DNA from: Actibacterium sp. XHP0104
GTDB lineage: Bacteria > Pseudomonadota > Alphaproteobacteria > Rhodobacterales > Rhodobacteraceae
Reading direction: 5' to 3'
DNA: 64,000 nucleotides
Assembly: GCF_025751515.1 (NCBI RefSeq)
Contig: NZ_JAOWLE010000004.1
Span: 124,001-188,000 of the forward strand
This document shows positions 23,751 through 59,469 of this stretch, one piece after another; the first letter of the stretch is position 1, and each line of letters starts with the position of its first letter. The notes beneath the pieces were generated by a model. That model searched no databases, was not told the origin of the DNA, and worked only from the letters and a program-made list of their open reading frames with translations. Both the position numbers and the translations under genes were made by a program.

Positions 23751-23837
23751 GCCCAGGTGGCGGAATTGGTAGACGCGCTAGCTTCAGGTGCTAGTGTCCG
23801 TATGGACGTGGAGGTTCGAGTCCTCTCCTGGGCACCA
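23751..23837 (+). tRNA. tRNA-Leu (anticodon CAG)
   Basis: A type II tRNA with a long variable arm. The 7-bp acceptor stem is GCCCAGG/CCTGGGC, the D arm contains GGAATTGGTAGA, the anticodon stem is CTAGC/GCTAG around TTCAGGT with CAG at 23785-23787, and the T arm carries GGTTCGAGTCC. The CCA end is encoded. It reads CUG, the dominant leucine codon in this genome. No integrase or att duplication is seen beside it. Confidence 0.97.
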
Positions 23838-38877: not shown

Positions 38878-39699
38878 ATGTTTGAGGCACAGCGCACCAC
38901 CAACAGCCTGACAGGCGCGTTCCGCCTGTTCGCGCTGATCTATCACGCGACCGTGCGCAACATCCGGCGCAGCCATGGCAACGCGCTGATCGGGCTGCTG
39001 ATGAACATGCTACAAACGATCATGTTCGTGGCGGCGTTTTACTTCATGTTCGAGTTTCTGGGCCTGCGCGGCGTCGCGATCCGGGGCGATTTCATGCTGT
39101 TCATCATGTCGGGCATCTTTCTGTTCCTGACCCATAACAAATCGCTGGGCGCGGTGCTGTCGTCCGAGTCCTCGACCTCGCCCATGATGCAGCACGCGCC
39201 GATGAACACCATCGTCGCCATCAGCGCCGCTGCGCTGTCGTCGCTGTATATCCAGGTGCTGTCGATGGTGGTGGTGATGTTCATCTATCACGCCGCCATG
39301 ACGCCCATCACCATCTATCAGCCCATCGGCGCCTTTGGCATGGTGCTGCTGGCCTGGGGGTCGGGCGTGGCGATCGGGCTGATGCTCTTGGCGATCAAGC
39401 CGTGGTTTCCGGGCCTCGTCAGCATTATCAGCCTGGTCTACATGCGCGCCAACATGATCGCCTCGGGCAAGATGTTCGTGGCCAACATGATGCCCGGCTA
39501 TATCCTGACCATGTTCACCTGGAACCCGCTGTTCCACACCATCGACCAGGCACGCGGCTTTGTGTTCATCAACTACAATCCGCATTTCTCGAACACCACC
39601 TACCCGATTCTGCTGTCTCTGATCCTGGTGCTGATCGGCCTGATGGGCGAGTTCTATACACGCAAACACGCCTCGAAAAGCTGGAACGCCAAACGCTAA
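38878..39699 (+). CDS. ABC-2 type polysaccharide export permease without adjacent ATPase
   Basis: A 273-residue inner-membrane permease with about six helices, like KpsM/Wzm capsule exporters: NIRRSHGNALIGLLMNMLQTI at the first helix, LSSESSTSPMMQHAPMNTIV, and the C-terminal TWNPLFHTIDQARG with VFINYNPHFS and EFYTRKHASKSW. Such permeases normally sit beside their ATPase and export proteins, but here none lie on either side. The subunit may pair with an ATPase coded elsewhere. It is 135 bases from the divergent cysQ. Confidence 0.82.
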   Translation: MFEAQRTTNSLTGAFRLFALIYHATVRNIRRSHGNALIGLLMNMLQTIMFVAAFYFMFEFLGLRGVAIRGDFMLFIMSGIFLFLTHNKSLGAVLSSESSTSPMMQHAPMNTIVAISAAALSSLYIQVLSMVVVMFIYHAAMTPITIYQPIGAFGMVLLAWGSGVAIGLMLLAIKPWFPGLVSIISLVYMRANMIASGKMFVANMMPGYILTMFTWNPLFHTIDQARGFVFINYNPHFSNTTYPILLSLILVLIGLMGEFYTRKHASKSWNAKR

Positions 39700-53981: not shown

Positions 53982-56489
53982 TCAGTCGAGCTGACGCTCG
54001 ACCTCTTCGCGCTCGAAAATCTCGATGACATCGCTGGGGCGGATATCGTCGTAGTTTTCAAAGGCCATGCCGCATTCCTGGCCCGACTGCACCTCTTTGA
54101 CTTCGTCCTTGAAGCGCTTGAGCGTTTTCAGCGTGCCTTCGTGGATCACGACGTTGTCGCGCAGCAGGCGCACACCGGCGCTGCGGCGGGCGACGCCCTC
54201 GGTCACCAGACAGCCGGCAACCTTGCCGACGCCCGACACCTTGAAGACCTCTTTGATCTCGGCGTAACCGATAAAGTTCTCGCGGATCTCGGCCGACAAC
54301 AGGCCAGACGCAGCGGCCTTGATGTCATCCACCAGGTCATAGATGACCGAGTAATAGCGGATTTCCACGCCCTTCTGGTTGGCAGCATTCCGCGCGGGCG
54401 CATTGGCACGCACGTTGAAGCCCACGATCGGCGCGCCCGACGCTTCGGCCAGGCCGACATCGGTTTCGGTGATGGCACCCACACCGGCATGCAGCACGCG
54501 CACGCGCACCTCTTCGTTGCCGATCTTTTCCATCGCCTGAACGATCGCCTCGGCCGAACCCTGCACGTCGGCCTTGACCAGCACCGGCAGCTCGGAGACG
54601 CTTTCGTCTTCCTTGGCCTTGGCCATCAGCTGATCCAGCGTGGTGGCGGCACCGGCAGCGGCACGTTTGTCCTTGGCCGCCTGGTGGCGGTATTCGGCGA
54701 TCTCGCGGGCCTGCGCCTCGGTCTCGACCACGTTCAGAACATCGCCCGCCTCGGGCGTGCCGTTCAGGCCCAGAACCTCGACCGGAACCGACGGCCCGGC
54801 CTCTTGCACACGGTCACCCTGATCGTTGACCAGCGCACGCACCTTGCCCCACTGCTCGCCGACGACAAAGATGTCGCCCTGGCGCAGCGTGCCGTTCTGA
54901 ACCAGAACGGTGGCAACGGGGCCGCGGCCCACGTCCAGCTGAGCCTCGATCACGGCACCCAGCGCGGCGCGCTTGGGGTTGGCCTTGAGCTCGAGGATCT
55001 CGGCCTGCAGCGCGATCGCTTCCAGCAGTTCGTCCAGGCCCTGGCCAGTATGGGCCGAAACCTCGACATCCTGCACTTCGCCCGACATGGCCTCGACGAC
55101 CACTTCGTGCTGCAACAGCTCGGTCCGCACCTTCATCGGGTCGGCCTGGGGCTTGTCGCATTTGTTGATCGCCACGATCATCGGCACACCGGCCGCCTTG
55201 GCGTGGTTGATGGCCTCGATGGTCTGCGGCATGACGCTGTCATCGGCCGCAACCACCAGAACCACGATATCGGTCACCTGCGCACCACGGGCACGCATCG
55301 AGGTGAACGCCGCGTGGCCGGGCGTATCGAGGAAGCTCAGCACCGCGCCGCTGTCGGTTTTCACCTGGTAAGCGCCGATATGCTGGGTGATGCCGCCGGC
55401 CTCGCCCGCGACAACCTTGGCGTTGCGGATCGCATCCAGCAGCGAGGTCTTGCCGTGGTCGACGTGACCCATGATGGTGATCACCGGCGGACGCGATTCA
55501 AGATCTTCGGGCTTGTCCTCGACCGAGTCGATGACCTGTTCCACATCGGCATCCGACACGCGCACGATGCGGTGGCCGAATTCCTCAATGATCAGCTCGG
55601 CCGTATCGGCGTCGATCGACTGGTTCTGCGTGACCATCATGCCCATTTTCATAAGCTCTTTGACCACGTCAGCCACGCGTTCGGCCATGCGGTTGGCCAG
55701 TTCCGAGACCACGATGGTTTCGGGAACCTGCACATCACGCACGATCTTTTCGCGTTCCTGCGCGCCGCCCATGGCCTTTTGGCGCATGCGCTCTTGCTTG
55801 CGTTTCATCGCGGCCATCGACCGCTGACGGCCACCCTCGCCCGACAGGGCCTGGTTGACGGTCAGCTTGCCCGAGCGGCGGTTATCGTCGCGGGCCTTGT
55901 TGCCACGCGGACGATCATCGGCGCGCTCGCGCTCGACCTTGCGCGGCGCGGCCTTGGCAGCAGCGCCACCACGGCTGGCCTCGGCTTCGGCATCTGCGGG
56001 CGAAGCGGGCGGCTGCTGCGGCTCGGCCGCCTTGGGGGCGGCTGCGGCACGCTTGCGGGCCTCTTCGGCCTCGCGCTTTTCGCGCTCTTCTTCCTCGGCC
56101 TTGCGGCGCGCGGCTTCTTCGATCTCGCGCTGCTCGCGTTCCTTGGCCTCGGCCTCTTCGCGGCGGCGCTGGCGATCTTCCTCGCGGCGCTTTTCATCTT
56201 CGGCGCGCTGACGCGCCTCATCGGCCTCGTTCGCCTTGGCCGCGGCCAGAGCTTTCAGACGGCGCTCCATCTCGGCATCGGAAATGCCTGCGGGGCGCTT
56301 CGAGGGATCCCCCGACTGCGGCGAACCGGCACCGGCCTTTGCCGCGCCCGGCTTGGGCACGACAACGCGCTTGCGCTTGGTCTCGACCACGACATTCTTG
56401 GTCCGTCCATGGCTAAAGCTTTGCTTTACCTGGCCAGACCGCGGACCGCCGCGGATACCGAGAGTTTTTTTGCCGTCACTATCGCTCAT
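53982..56489 (-). CDS. infB: Translation initiation factor IF-2
   Basis: A GTPase that brings fMet-tRNA to the 30S subunit. The 835-residue protein has a charged, helix-rich N-terminal region (Glu/Arg-rich stretch about 80-150, then a basic R/G region), the G domain from about 335 with [29 protein letters not shown] and NKCDKPQAD, and C-terminal domains ending [11 protein letters not shown]. The ATG overlaps the ylxR stop by 4 bases. It is the last gene of the rimP operon. The long opposite-strand frame is an artefact. Confidence 0.98.
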
Positions 56490-57118
56490 GTGGTCTTAAC
56501 ACCCTTCCCGGAGGCCTTGCCCCCGCTCACTTTGCGAACGCCCGCAAGTTTGGCAGCATCCTCTACAACACGTCGTGTGAGTCCGCCAGCCGCAAGCGCG
56601 CCATGTATCACATGTTCCCGTCCGAAAGCCAAACCCAATTCATCGGCAGTCAGACAGCCTATAAAAACAGACGTATCCGAGGGCAGCCGCAGCTTGGACT
56701 TGCCCCTTTCGGACCCGTCACTGGCCTGGATCAGAACGTCGGCGTTCCCCCCCATCAGCCAGTTTTTAACCTTTTCATACCCGGCCACCGCCAGCCCGGC
56801 CTTGCGCGCCAGCGAGATCCCCTCGACCACGCGCTTGGCCAGCCCGGCCTCGACCTGGGCAAACAGATCCTCGGGCACGTTGACCGCCTGTTTGGCGCCG
56901 CGCGCGAACAGCCGCTTTTTGATCGCGGTTTCCAGCGCGGCACGGTCGGCGGCCACCCAGATGCCCCGGCCGGGCAGCTTGCCCAGCAGGTCGGGCACGA
57001 TCACGTCGCCCGGGCCAACCACGAAACGGATCAGCCCGGCCTTGGGCTGCACCTCGCCGGTGGCGATACAACGCCGCTCGGGTTCGTCGTGCTTGTTATG
57101 TTGGCCACCGCGGCTCAT
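56486..57118 (-). CDS. YlxR-family RNA-binding protein fused to an L7Ae-like domain
   Basis: A 210-residue protein in the conserved nusA-ylxR-infB order. The N-terminal YlxR (DUF448) domain (residues about 12-90) has [24 protein letters not shown] and [12 protein letters not shown]. The C-terminal half (about 95-190) resembles ribosomal L7Ae-type folds ([43 protein letters not shown]). YlxR-type proteins are linked to RNase P or ribosome biogenesis; for the fused form the role is inferred. It starts 23 bases after nusA. Confidence 0.88.
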
Positions 57119-57141: not shown

Positions 57142-58761
57142 TCAGGCCTCGGCCTCCTCGGTTTCGTCACCCTCGGCCTCGGCATCGTCCTCGGACACCA
57201 GATCAGCCGGATCGACCCAGCCCAGCGCGATGCGGGCATTCATGACCAGATCCTGGGCCTCTTGCAGCGACACGTCGAATTTTTCCAGGATGCCGTCATC
57301 CTTGGTGCGCTCGCCGTTCACCGTGGTCCAGCCGCCGGCCAGTTCCCAGTCGGCGCAGGTGGCAAAGTCTTCCAGCGTTTTCACGCCGTCTTCGGCCAGA
57401 GCCTCTAGCATCTGGGGGGTCAGGCCTTCGAATTCAACCAGGCTGTCCTCGACACCCAGTTCGCGGGCGCGTTCCATCGCCTTCTGGTTCAGTGCGTCGA
57501 TATGATCGCGGGCGCGGGCCTGCAGCTCTTCGGCGGTGCCTTCGTCGACACCGTCGATCACCAGCAGCTCGTCCAGGTCGACATAGGCGACCTCTTCCAG
57601 GCTGGTAAAGCCTTCGGACACCAGCAGCTGGGCAAAGAATTCGTCCAGGTCCAGGCTGTCCATGAACAGCTGGGTGCGCTCGGCGAATTCGGCCTGGCGG
57701 CGCTCGGATTCTTCGCTTTCAGTCATGATGTCGATATCAAGATGCGTCAGCTGGCTGGCCAGACGCACGTTCTGACCGCGGCGGCCGATGGCCAGCGACA
57801 GCTGCTCGTCGGGCACGACAACCTCGATGCGCTCGGCCTCTTCGTCCAGAACCACCTTGGAAACCTCTGCCGGCTGCAGCGCGTTCACCAGGAAGGTCGG
57901 CTGGTCCTCGTTCCACGGAATGATGTCGATCTTCTCGCCCTGCAGCTCGTTCACGACGGCCTGCACGCGGCTGCCGCGCATACCAACGCAGGCGCCCACG
58001 GGGTCGATCGAGTTGTCATAGCTGATCACGGCGATCTTGGCGCGCGAACCCGGGTCACGGGCGACGGCCTTGATCTCGATGATGCCGTCATAAATCTCGG
58101 GCACTTCCATCTTGAACAGCTCGGCCATGAACTCCGGCGCGGTGCGCGACAGGAAGATCTGCGGGCCGCGGGCCTCGCGGCGCACATCCTTGATGTAGCA
58201 GCGGATGCGGTCATTCGGGCGATAGCTTTCGCGGCCGATCTTTTCGTTGCGGCGCAGGATGCCTTCGCCACGGCCGATATCGACGATGACGTTGCCGTAT
58301 TCCTCGCGCTTGACGACACCGTTGATGATGGTGCCGGCACGATCCTTGAACTCTTCGAACTGGCGGTCGCGCTCTGCTTCGCGAACCTTTTGCAGGATGA
58401 CCTGCTTGGCCGACTGGGCGGCGATCCGGCCCATTTCCACCGGCGGCACCTCGTCGCTGATCTCGTCACCGATCTGGGGATTTTCGAGATACGGCTTGGC
58501 CTGCTCGACGGTCAGCTCTGCCTGATAGTTTTCCAGCTCGTCATCGGCGACAACGGTGCGCACGCGGGTAAAGGTCGCCTTGCCGGTCTTGCGGTCGATC
58601 GACACGCGAATGTCCATCTCGGCGCCGTAGCGCGACTTGGCGGCGCGGGCCAGGGATTCTTCCATCGCCTGAACCACCAGATCGGGGTCGATCATCTTTT
58701 CGCGGGCCACGGCCTCGGCGGTTTGCAACAGCTCAAGCTGGTTTGCAGAGGTAATCGCCAT
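57142..58761 (-). CDS. nusA: Transcription termination/antitermination factor NusA
   Basis: Binds RNA polymerase and modulates pausing, termination and antitermination. The 539-residue protein has the N-terminal polymerase-binding domain, an S1 domain, two KH domains ([50 protein letters not shown]) and acidic C-terminal repeats, ending in the tail [24 protein letters not shown] precedes ATG 58761, which follows the rimP stop by 3 bases. NusA may control its own operon through the leader hairpin upstream of rimP. Confidence 0.98.
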
Positions 58762-58764
58762 CAC

Positions 58765-59349
58765 TCACTCCTCCTCGGAAGCGTCGGTTGTTTCAATCTC
58801 GTCGAATTGGTCTTCGTCCACGATGCCGGCGGCCTTGCGGGCGCGCAGCATGTCGCGGATCAGATCGTCGGTCAGCACCAGCTTGGCATCCGACAGCCAG
58901 TCGAATTTCAGCCCGATGGTCACATCGTCGCCCTGATCCTCGATGGTGATCAGAACCTCGTCGCCCTCGGTGCCGGCCAGCGCGCCCTTGAAGCGGCGGC
59001 GCCCGTCGATCAGCTCGGAAGTCTCGATCTTGGCCTCATAGCCGCTCCAGGTGTCGAAATCCTTGAGCCGGGTCAGCGGGCGGTCGATACCGGGGCTGGA
59101 CACCTCAAGGGTATAGTTTTCCTCGATCGGGTCCTCGACGTCCAGCACAGCCGATACGGCGGTCGAAATCTCGGCGCAATCGTCAACCTCGATCCCGCCC
59201 TCGGGACGCTCGGCCATGATTTGCAGCGTATGGGTCTTGCCACCCATCAGACGCAGGCGCACCAGCTCATAGCCCATGCCCTCTAGCACGGGCTGGACAA
59301 TCTCGGCGAGGCGCCGGTCAATGGCGGCTTTGGCGATCAGGTCGTTCAT
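58765..59349 (-). CDS. rimP: Ribosome maturation factor RimP
   Basis: Assists 30S subunit maturation. The 194-residue protein starts at ATG 59349 ([18 protein letters not shown]) and has the family segments [24 protein letters not shown] and [25 protein letters not shown]. The frame is open further up through a terminator-like hairpin, so the upstream part is excluded. The ribosome-binding site is weak (GGA 6 bases away) and partly overlaps the T tract of the leader hairpin. Confidence 0.95.
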
Positions 59350-59362
59350 ATGGTCCAAACAC

Positions 59363-59386
59363 AAAAAAACGGGCGCGCGGCCCGTT
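59363..59386 (-). terminator. Attenuator-like intrinsic terminator in the rimP leader
   Basis: On the minus strand, the perfect stem AACGGGC/GCCCGTT with the 5-base loop CGCGC is directly followed by seven T (59369-59363). It lies 13 bases before the rimP ATG and downstream of the putative promoter, so polymerase entering rimP must read through it. A smaller stem CTCC/GGAG (59393-59403) precedes it and might compete. Confidence 0.7.
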
Positions 59387-59440
59387 GAAACTCTCCGGTG
59401 GAGCGTCGGGGTGGAAACCAACGCACCGCTGTTGAAGGGG

Positions 59441-59469
59441 GATATACGCCCGATGCCCCGAGTCTGCAA
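59441..59469 (-). promoter_or_regulatory. Putative promoter of rimP-nusA-ylxR-infB
   Basis: TTGCAG (minus strand 59469-59464), a 17-base spacer and TATATC (59446-59441). The predicted start near 59434 gives an 85-base leader. It overlaps no coding sequence, being just after the pip stop at 59479. Confidence 0.55.

Follow-up and report, generated by a model that had tools for sequence, protein, structure and literature searches.

The region analysed here is a window of 64,000 nt from Actibacterium sp. XHP0104 (contig NZ_JAOWLE010000004.1, positions 124,001-188,000; assembly GCF_025751515.1), and all coordinates are given as positions in this window. Four tightly packed genes on the minus strand, whose identity was given by Pfam, are organised in the order rimP-nusA-ylxR-infB. 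These are rimP, the first gene of the operon (58765-59349, with the ATG at 59349-59347; PF02576, 1.9e-26), nusA (57142-58764; PF08529, 1.4e-34, and PF13184, 8.3e-29), ylxR (56486-57118; PF04296, 2.8e-22), and infB, encoding IF-2 (53982-56489; PF11987, 1.2e-41). Upstream of rimP, on the same strand and separated from it by approximately 130 bases, lies pip, whose product corresponds to an alpha/beta hydrolase according to Pfam. Elsewhere in the window, a strong Rfam match to Cis2_sRNA (RF02645, 97 bits, gathering threshold 50) was found at 39441-39594 on the minus strand; this is a Ruegeria sRNA, present here in a related but different genus. The sole tRNA gene of the window, tRNA-Leu (cag), is located at 23751-23837 on the plus strand.

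The promoter claimed in the original prediction, TTGCAG-N17-TATATC, is present between pip and rimP (59469-59441, minus strand) and is conserved in the family. The -35 element TTGCAG occupies positions 59464-59469 and the -10 element TATATC positions 59441-59446, with a spacer of 17 nt as read from the sequence. A TATAT(G/C)-like -10 element was found in 122 of the 136 non-redundant Rhodobacteraceae leaders, and all 122 possess a TTG 17 nt upstream of it, mostly inside CTTGCA. The gap between the end of the -10 hexamer and the sequence CAACAG is 5-6 nt in 114 of these 122 leaders. From the spacing to the -10 element, transcription would start at 59434/59433, at or near CAACAG. The sigma-70 promoter scan of the window did not report this promoter, which falls short of its threshold.

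Between this promoter and rimP, the terminator scan detected an intrinsic terminator at 59368-59386 (minus strand), formed by the arms AACGGGC (59386-59380) and GCCCGTT (59374-59368) around the loop CGCGC. It runs into a tract of seven T (59369-59363), the first two of which double as stem-closing bases. The hairpin begins about 48 bases past the likely start, and 13 bases (59362-59350) separate the T tract from the rimP ATG. Reading of the minus strand thereby confirmed the terminator, its T tract and its position ahead of rimP as claimed before. The stem had also been described as a perfect GC stem of 7 bp; the length is correct, and the composition is five G-C and two A-T pairs. The terminated RNA, for which 80 bases had been given, is predicted to be about 71-72 nt long from a start at 59434/59433. 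The window alone is unremarkable, with three terminators found by the scan against 1.7 expected, which is near expectation, and with a leader fold that, for the window sequence alone, is no better than that of shuffled sequences (z -0.90). The element is judged to be real because it is conserved, and the terminator sits within the transcript of the conserved promoter, as an attenuator requires.

Searches with RimP gave a match in 142 of 149 genomes of the same family, and the nearest of the 80 named RimP loci belongs to Actibacterium atlanticum (89% identity). The 170 leaders compared comprise the own genome, 29 search loci, the 80 named loci and 60 more, with some duplicates. A strict script, requiring a stem of 6 or more pairs without mismatch that includes GGGC, and a tract of T4 or more, detected a GGGC-type terminator ahead of rimP in 166 of the 170 leaders. 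Dinucleotide shuffles of the same leaders (20 rounds) contained 1.1 terminators on average and 3 at most, and the reverse strand contained one. A regular expression recovered the terminator in 167 of the 170, and the remaining three (L025, L124 and L134) show it by eye. Of the 167 leaders matched by the regular expression, 165 have the terminator 9-73 nt from rimP; the other two are L137, with 0 nt, and L133, with 132 nt and a doubtful start, which was removed ahead of de-duplication.

The leader as a whole follows a common order in two alignments, A1 and A2, which hold 84 and 116, respectively, of the 136 non-redundant segments; odd segments were excluded, and the covariation counts therefore favour regular members. 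It starts with CAACAGCGGC, continues through stem I, whose sequence varies, to (U)CCACCGG and, beyond a linker, reaches ACGGGCCGC...GCCCGU and a T tract. In the window, the 5′ motif CAACAGCGG is located at 59426-59434 (minus strand), at or just after the likely start; a match of 9/9 was found in 86 of the 136 leaders and one of at least 6/9 in 132. Stem I is a sequence-variable hairpin at 59400-59427 (minus strand), detected by covariation and RNAalifold. On its 3′ side lies the CCACCGG motif (59395-59401, minus strand), which is nearly invariant in A1 and A2. In the terminator state, its CC is paired with GG from the 5′ motif.

Covariation was found for stem I plus the terminator, in line with the earlier suggestion that leader covariation be checked in relatives. 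Seven of the nine pairs of stem I have changes on both sides, and 92.3% of its cells are paired. Together, stem I and the terminator have 139 both-side cells vs 45.7 in row shuffles (0/500). Row-shuffling ignores relatedness; the control in which the pairing partners were slid does not, and it abolishes the covariation. Searched with a covariance model of the leader (R1), the own genome shows a single strong match (E 1.4e-23), the second-best having E 0.03. In the last 48 family loci, fetched once the features had been defined and used as a hold-out, the terminator and the 5′ motif were each found in 47 leaders, and the strict promoter pattern and CACCG/CTACCG in 42 each; the pattern is absent from the hold-out leader L364. 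Conservation in the 170 leaders and the 48 held-out ones strongly supports a promoter plus attenuator with operon expression dependent on read-through. The earlier prediction went this far, overlooking stem I, the two conserved motifs (CAACAGCGGC and CCACCG) and a possible antiterminator. L136 and L137, two deep branches assigned to the family (RimP identity 41% and 33%), keep the GGGC terminator, but neither the CAACAGCGGC motif nor stem I can be recognised in them; both were omitted from the antiterminator permutation and sequestration tests described below.

Two other roles for the leader were considered and rejected. A GTG frame crosses the leader of the window, but by eye the GTG is absent from most relatives, and a leader peptide was discarded. 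The 5′ sequence CUCAACAG resembles the NusA-binding RNA of M. tuberculosis. However, a start at or near CAACAG would leave part of this resemblance untranscribed, and a NusA KH site at this position was discarded.

Folding and permutation tests point to a candidate antiterminator. Its strand 1 (59425-59429, minus strand) is GCGGU here and GCGGC in the consensus, and its strand 2, CGGGCCGC, covers sequence of the terminator 5′ arm and loop (59377-59384, minus strand). Pairing probabilities were obtained from the 116 sequences of A2, each folded only as far as the terminator loop. In these folds strand 1 pairs with GCCGC (59381-59377) at a mean probability of 0.82-0.85 per pair, and the CCG of CCACCGG is paired to CGG in the 5′ arm of the terminator at 0.39. 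The two helices, with stem I between them, form a predicted three-way junction that would hold the terminator 5′ arm and whose pairing explains most of the conserved blocks of the leader. The 5′ arm is sequestered at 0.91 in native Rhodobacteraceae leaders vs 0.73 in shuffled ones. A pairing of loop I with GGGCC was also considered and rejected; the loop is variable, and it accounts for 0.01 of the 5′-arm pairing in the folds to the terminator loop.

The GCGGC-GCCGC pairing is intact in 96.7% of cells and has three both-side cells, few variants being available, and the CCG:CGG pairing is nearly invariant, hence uninformative on covariation. Among 134 leaders, the duplex energy of own strands is -11.78 vs -11.49 (sd 0.06) when strands are swapped among leaders (0/5000 permutations), and the permutation on the 25 variants alone gave 36/10000; these tests ignore relatedness. 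Clear compensated cases are L002 and L047, in which AGAGG faces CCUCU. In the hold-out, the strand-swap permutation was marginal (466/10000), and L325 and L344 are uncompensated, with weak pairing. Pairing of the antiterminator is also weak in the GGGCCTGT clade (L020, L050, L103 and others). In full-length leaders the terminator state is more stable by 3.3 kcal/mol on average, a comparison in which the terminator energy is understated for rows such as L097, where the terminator exceeds the alignment columns. Full-length leaders and their shuffles are alike in the probability of the terminator (0.55 vs 0.54). Taken on sequence, the compensatory changes moderately back the GCGGC-GCCGC antiterminator, and we give a candidate antiterminator around stem I in Rhodobacteraceae leaders about an even chance or slightly less.

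A group of nine leaders (L014, L020, L025, L050, L056, L103, L110, L128 and L344) has the terminator loop CCTGT or CCTCT. Mostly, these leaders carry CTACCG in place of CCACCG, and their antiterminator helix is weak. For most members, a pairing between CUGU and the ACAG within the 5′ motif would be possible.

Outside the family, rimP leaders were compared from other families of the Alphaproteobacteria. The set numbers 107, of which 80 were retrieved and 27 were already among the search loci, and was drawn from 203 genomes of the class in which RimP had a match; L208 and L209, which belong to the same family, were taken out before the class counts. A GGGC terminator was found in 58 of the 107 leaders, compared with a mean of 0.6 in shuffles and 3 on the reverse strand, and typically takes the form GUGGGCC...GGCCCAC-T6. 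This stricter count is preferred over the 76 class terminators of the sequestration test, which include apparently spurious ones by eye (such as L212, L228, L234 and L272). In that test, sequestration of the 5′ arm was 0.67 vs 0.65 in shuffles, without excess, and a class-wide antiterminator was therefore rejected. Model R1, searched in 240 class genomes, gave three same-family matches at 2e-20 or better and 36 other, weak matches (E 2e-8 to 0.009). By eye, rimP directly follows twelve of these weak matches; the remaining ones lie elsewhere, or their rimP position is absent from the listing. Judged from these sequences, the terminator is class-wide and the Rhodobacteraceae 5′ part is not. Strong pairing of the terminator 5′ arm with RNA upstream of it (0.75-0.99) occurs in five leaders of other families (L231, L233, L238, L244 and L258). 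It involves different sequences, and lineage-specific antiterminators are possible there.

The terminator is the form that the published rimP-leader attenuator takes in Alphaproteobacteria, and attenuation at this operon is of an already known kind. Naville and Gautheret (2010, PMC2965389) describe the rimP-leader as an attenuator with a GGGc...gCCC terminator and NusA as the best candidate, termed the most ubiquitous transcription attenuator in 2010, with the sensor unproven. Similar to the rimP-leader, the element of strain XHP0104 precedes rimP-nusA-infB, confirmed here by Pfam, and possesses the corresponding stem and T tract (CGGGC...GCCCG-T7). It lies 13 nt from the gene start, within the published distance of 4-130 nt. 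In its general form, the rimP-leader was reported without an antiterminator or any larger conserved element (PMC2965389), in contrast to the present leader, where the promoter, the 5′ motif and CCACCG are conserved and stem I covaries. The gammaproteobacterial form has a second terminator and an antiterminator, and differs from the present leader (PMC2965389). The remainder of the leader beyond the terminator looks new. Rfam family RF01770 (rimP) shares the gene context by name, but it gave no match at the locus, its best match in the genome being 22.8 bits elsewhere, against a gathering threshold of 47. No other Rfam family matched at the locus, and the matches near it were all below gathering. 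A search by title and beginning of abstract, in a collection that mostly leaves out subscription journals, returned no paper on an alphaproteobacterial rimP leader.

Control of nusA operons through the leader has been described in other bacteria. In B. subtilis, NusA controls its own synthesis by stimulating termination in the nusA leader (Mondal 2016, as summarised in the review PMC12288461). The present leader is similar in that intrinsic termination in the 5′ leader would govern entry into the operon, whereas the dependence on NusA is reported for B. subtilis. The S. agalactiae operon gbs0413-gbs0418 produces a short terminated RNA and a long transcript from one start before rimP-nusA-infB (PMC4448216); termination occurs there 31 nt past the start, which leaves no space for a leader like the present one. 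Autoregulation of NusA in E. coli has also been reported, as cited in PMC2965389 and PMC4448216.

Plain NusA-stimulated termination in the style of B. subtilis might account for the leader with terminator strength and NusA setting the read-through, no working antiterminator, and a stem I that merely keeps upstream RNA aside. This would agree with the general form of the published rimP-leader, which shares the terminator motif and has no visible antiterminator (PMC2965389). The class-wide occurrence of the terminator, not accompanied by a class-wide excess of 5′-arm sequestration, and the preference of the full-length fold for the terminator are also in its favour. However, plain termination leaves unexplained the 5′ GCGG, the CCG and the terminator-loop GC conserved in Rhodobacteraceae, as well as the compensated variants L002 and L047, and we consider it rather unlikely.

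The terminated RNA of 71 nt could instead act mainly in trans, as a small RNA made from the rimP promoter. A precedent is UpsM from the dcw leader of R. sphaeroides, likewise a short RNA from a Rhodobacteraceae 5′ UTR with a Rho-independent terminator; it belongs to another operon, has a 5′ UTR of 268 nt, and its action in trans is proposed (PMC5089854). Conservation of the 5′ motif and CCACCGG would suit such a function, yet pairing within the leader explains most of the conserved blocks, and the main text of an R. pomeroyi sRNA survey contains no mention of nusA, rimP or leader, so that a principal role in trans seems very improbable. The position of pip upstream on the same strand, with only the short intergenic region between the genes, would also allow the hairpin to be the terminator of pip, with read-through or an undetected promoter then accounting for rimP transcription. 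A conserved promoter is located between pip and the hairpin, however, and among 108 loci with at least 1.2 kb of upstream sequence, 72 carry pip upstream in the same orientation and just 28 have its end within 270 nt of rimP. The attenuator is assigned to rimP because the element is kept with rimP where pip is not adjacent, and the pip reading, to which we give hardly any credence, was rejected on this basis.

The element is taken to be a real, conserved attenuator, and we lean towards a reading in which it controls the whole rimP-nusA-ylxR-infB operon through competing pairings in the leader together with NusA feedback. Transcription from the single conserved promoter would begin at or near CAACAG and pass through stem I and the conserved blocks, after which the rimP-leader-type terminator would end an RNA of approximately 71 nt unless RNA polymerase reads through. 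The fraction of read-through would be set during synthesis of the leader, by competition between the terminator hairpin and the helices that would otherwise engage its 5′ arm (GCGGC with GCCGC and CCG with CGG). More tentative, and in our opinion possible rather than probable, is the specific reading in which GCGGC, within the first transcribed bases, and the CCG after stem I capture the terminator 5′ arm, with NusA or another product of the operon deciding the outcome. By analogy with other bacteria, abundant NusA would favour termination, and thereby exert negative feedback on NusA, RimP and IF-2; such feedback is plausible as the likeliest use of the attenuator.

The genes rimP, nusA and infB connect transcription elongation, 30S maturation and translation initiation. 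If the capture of the terminator 5′ arm is true, the leader would be an antiterminating rimP-leader differing from the published forms. Shared across the family, with its promoter fixed, its stem covarying and its predicted two-state pairing open to experiment, the leader offers a compact system, in culturable relatives of Rhodobacter and Ruegeria, for studying how the level of NusA is sensed and whether an antiterminator was gained by the rimP-leader in this family.
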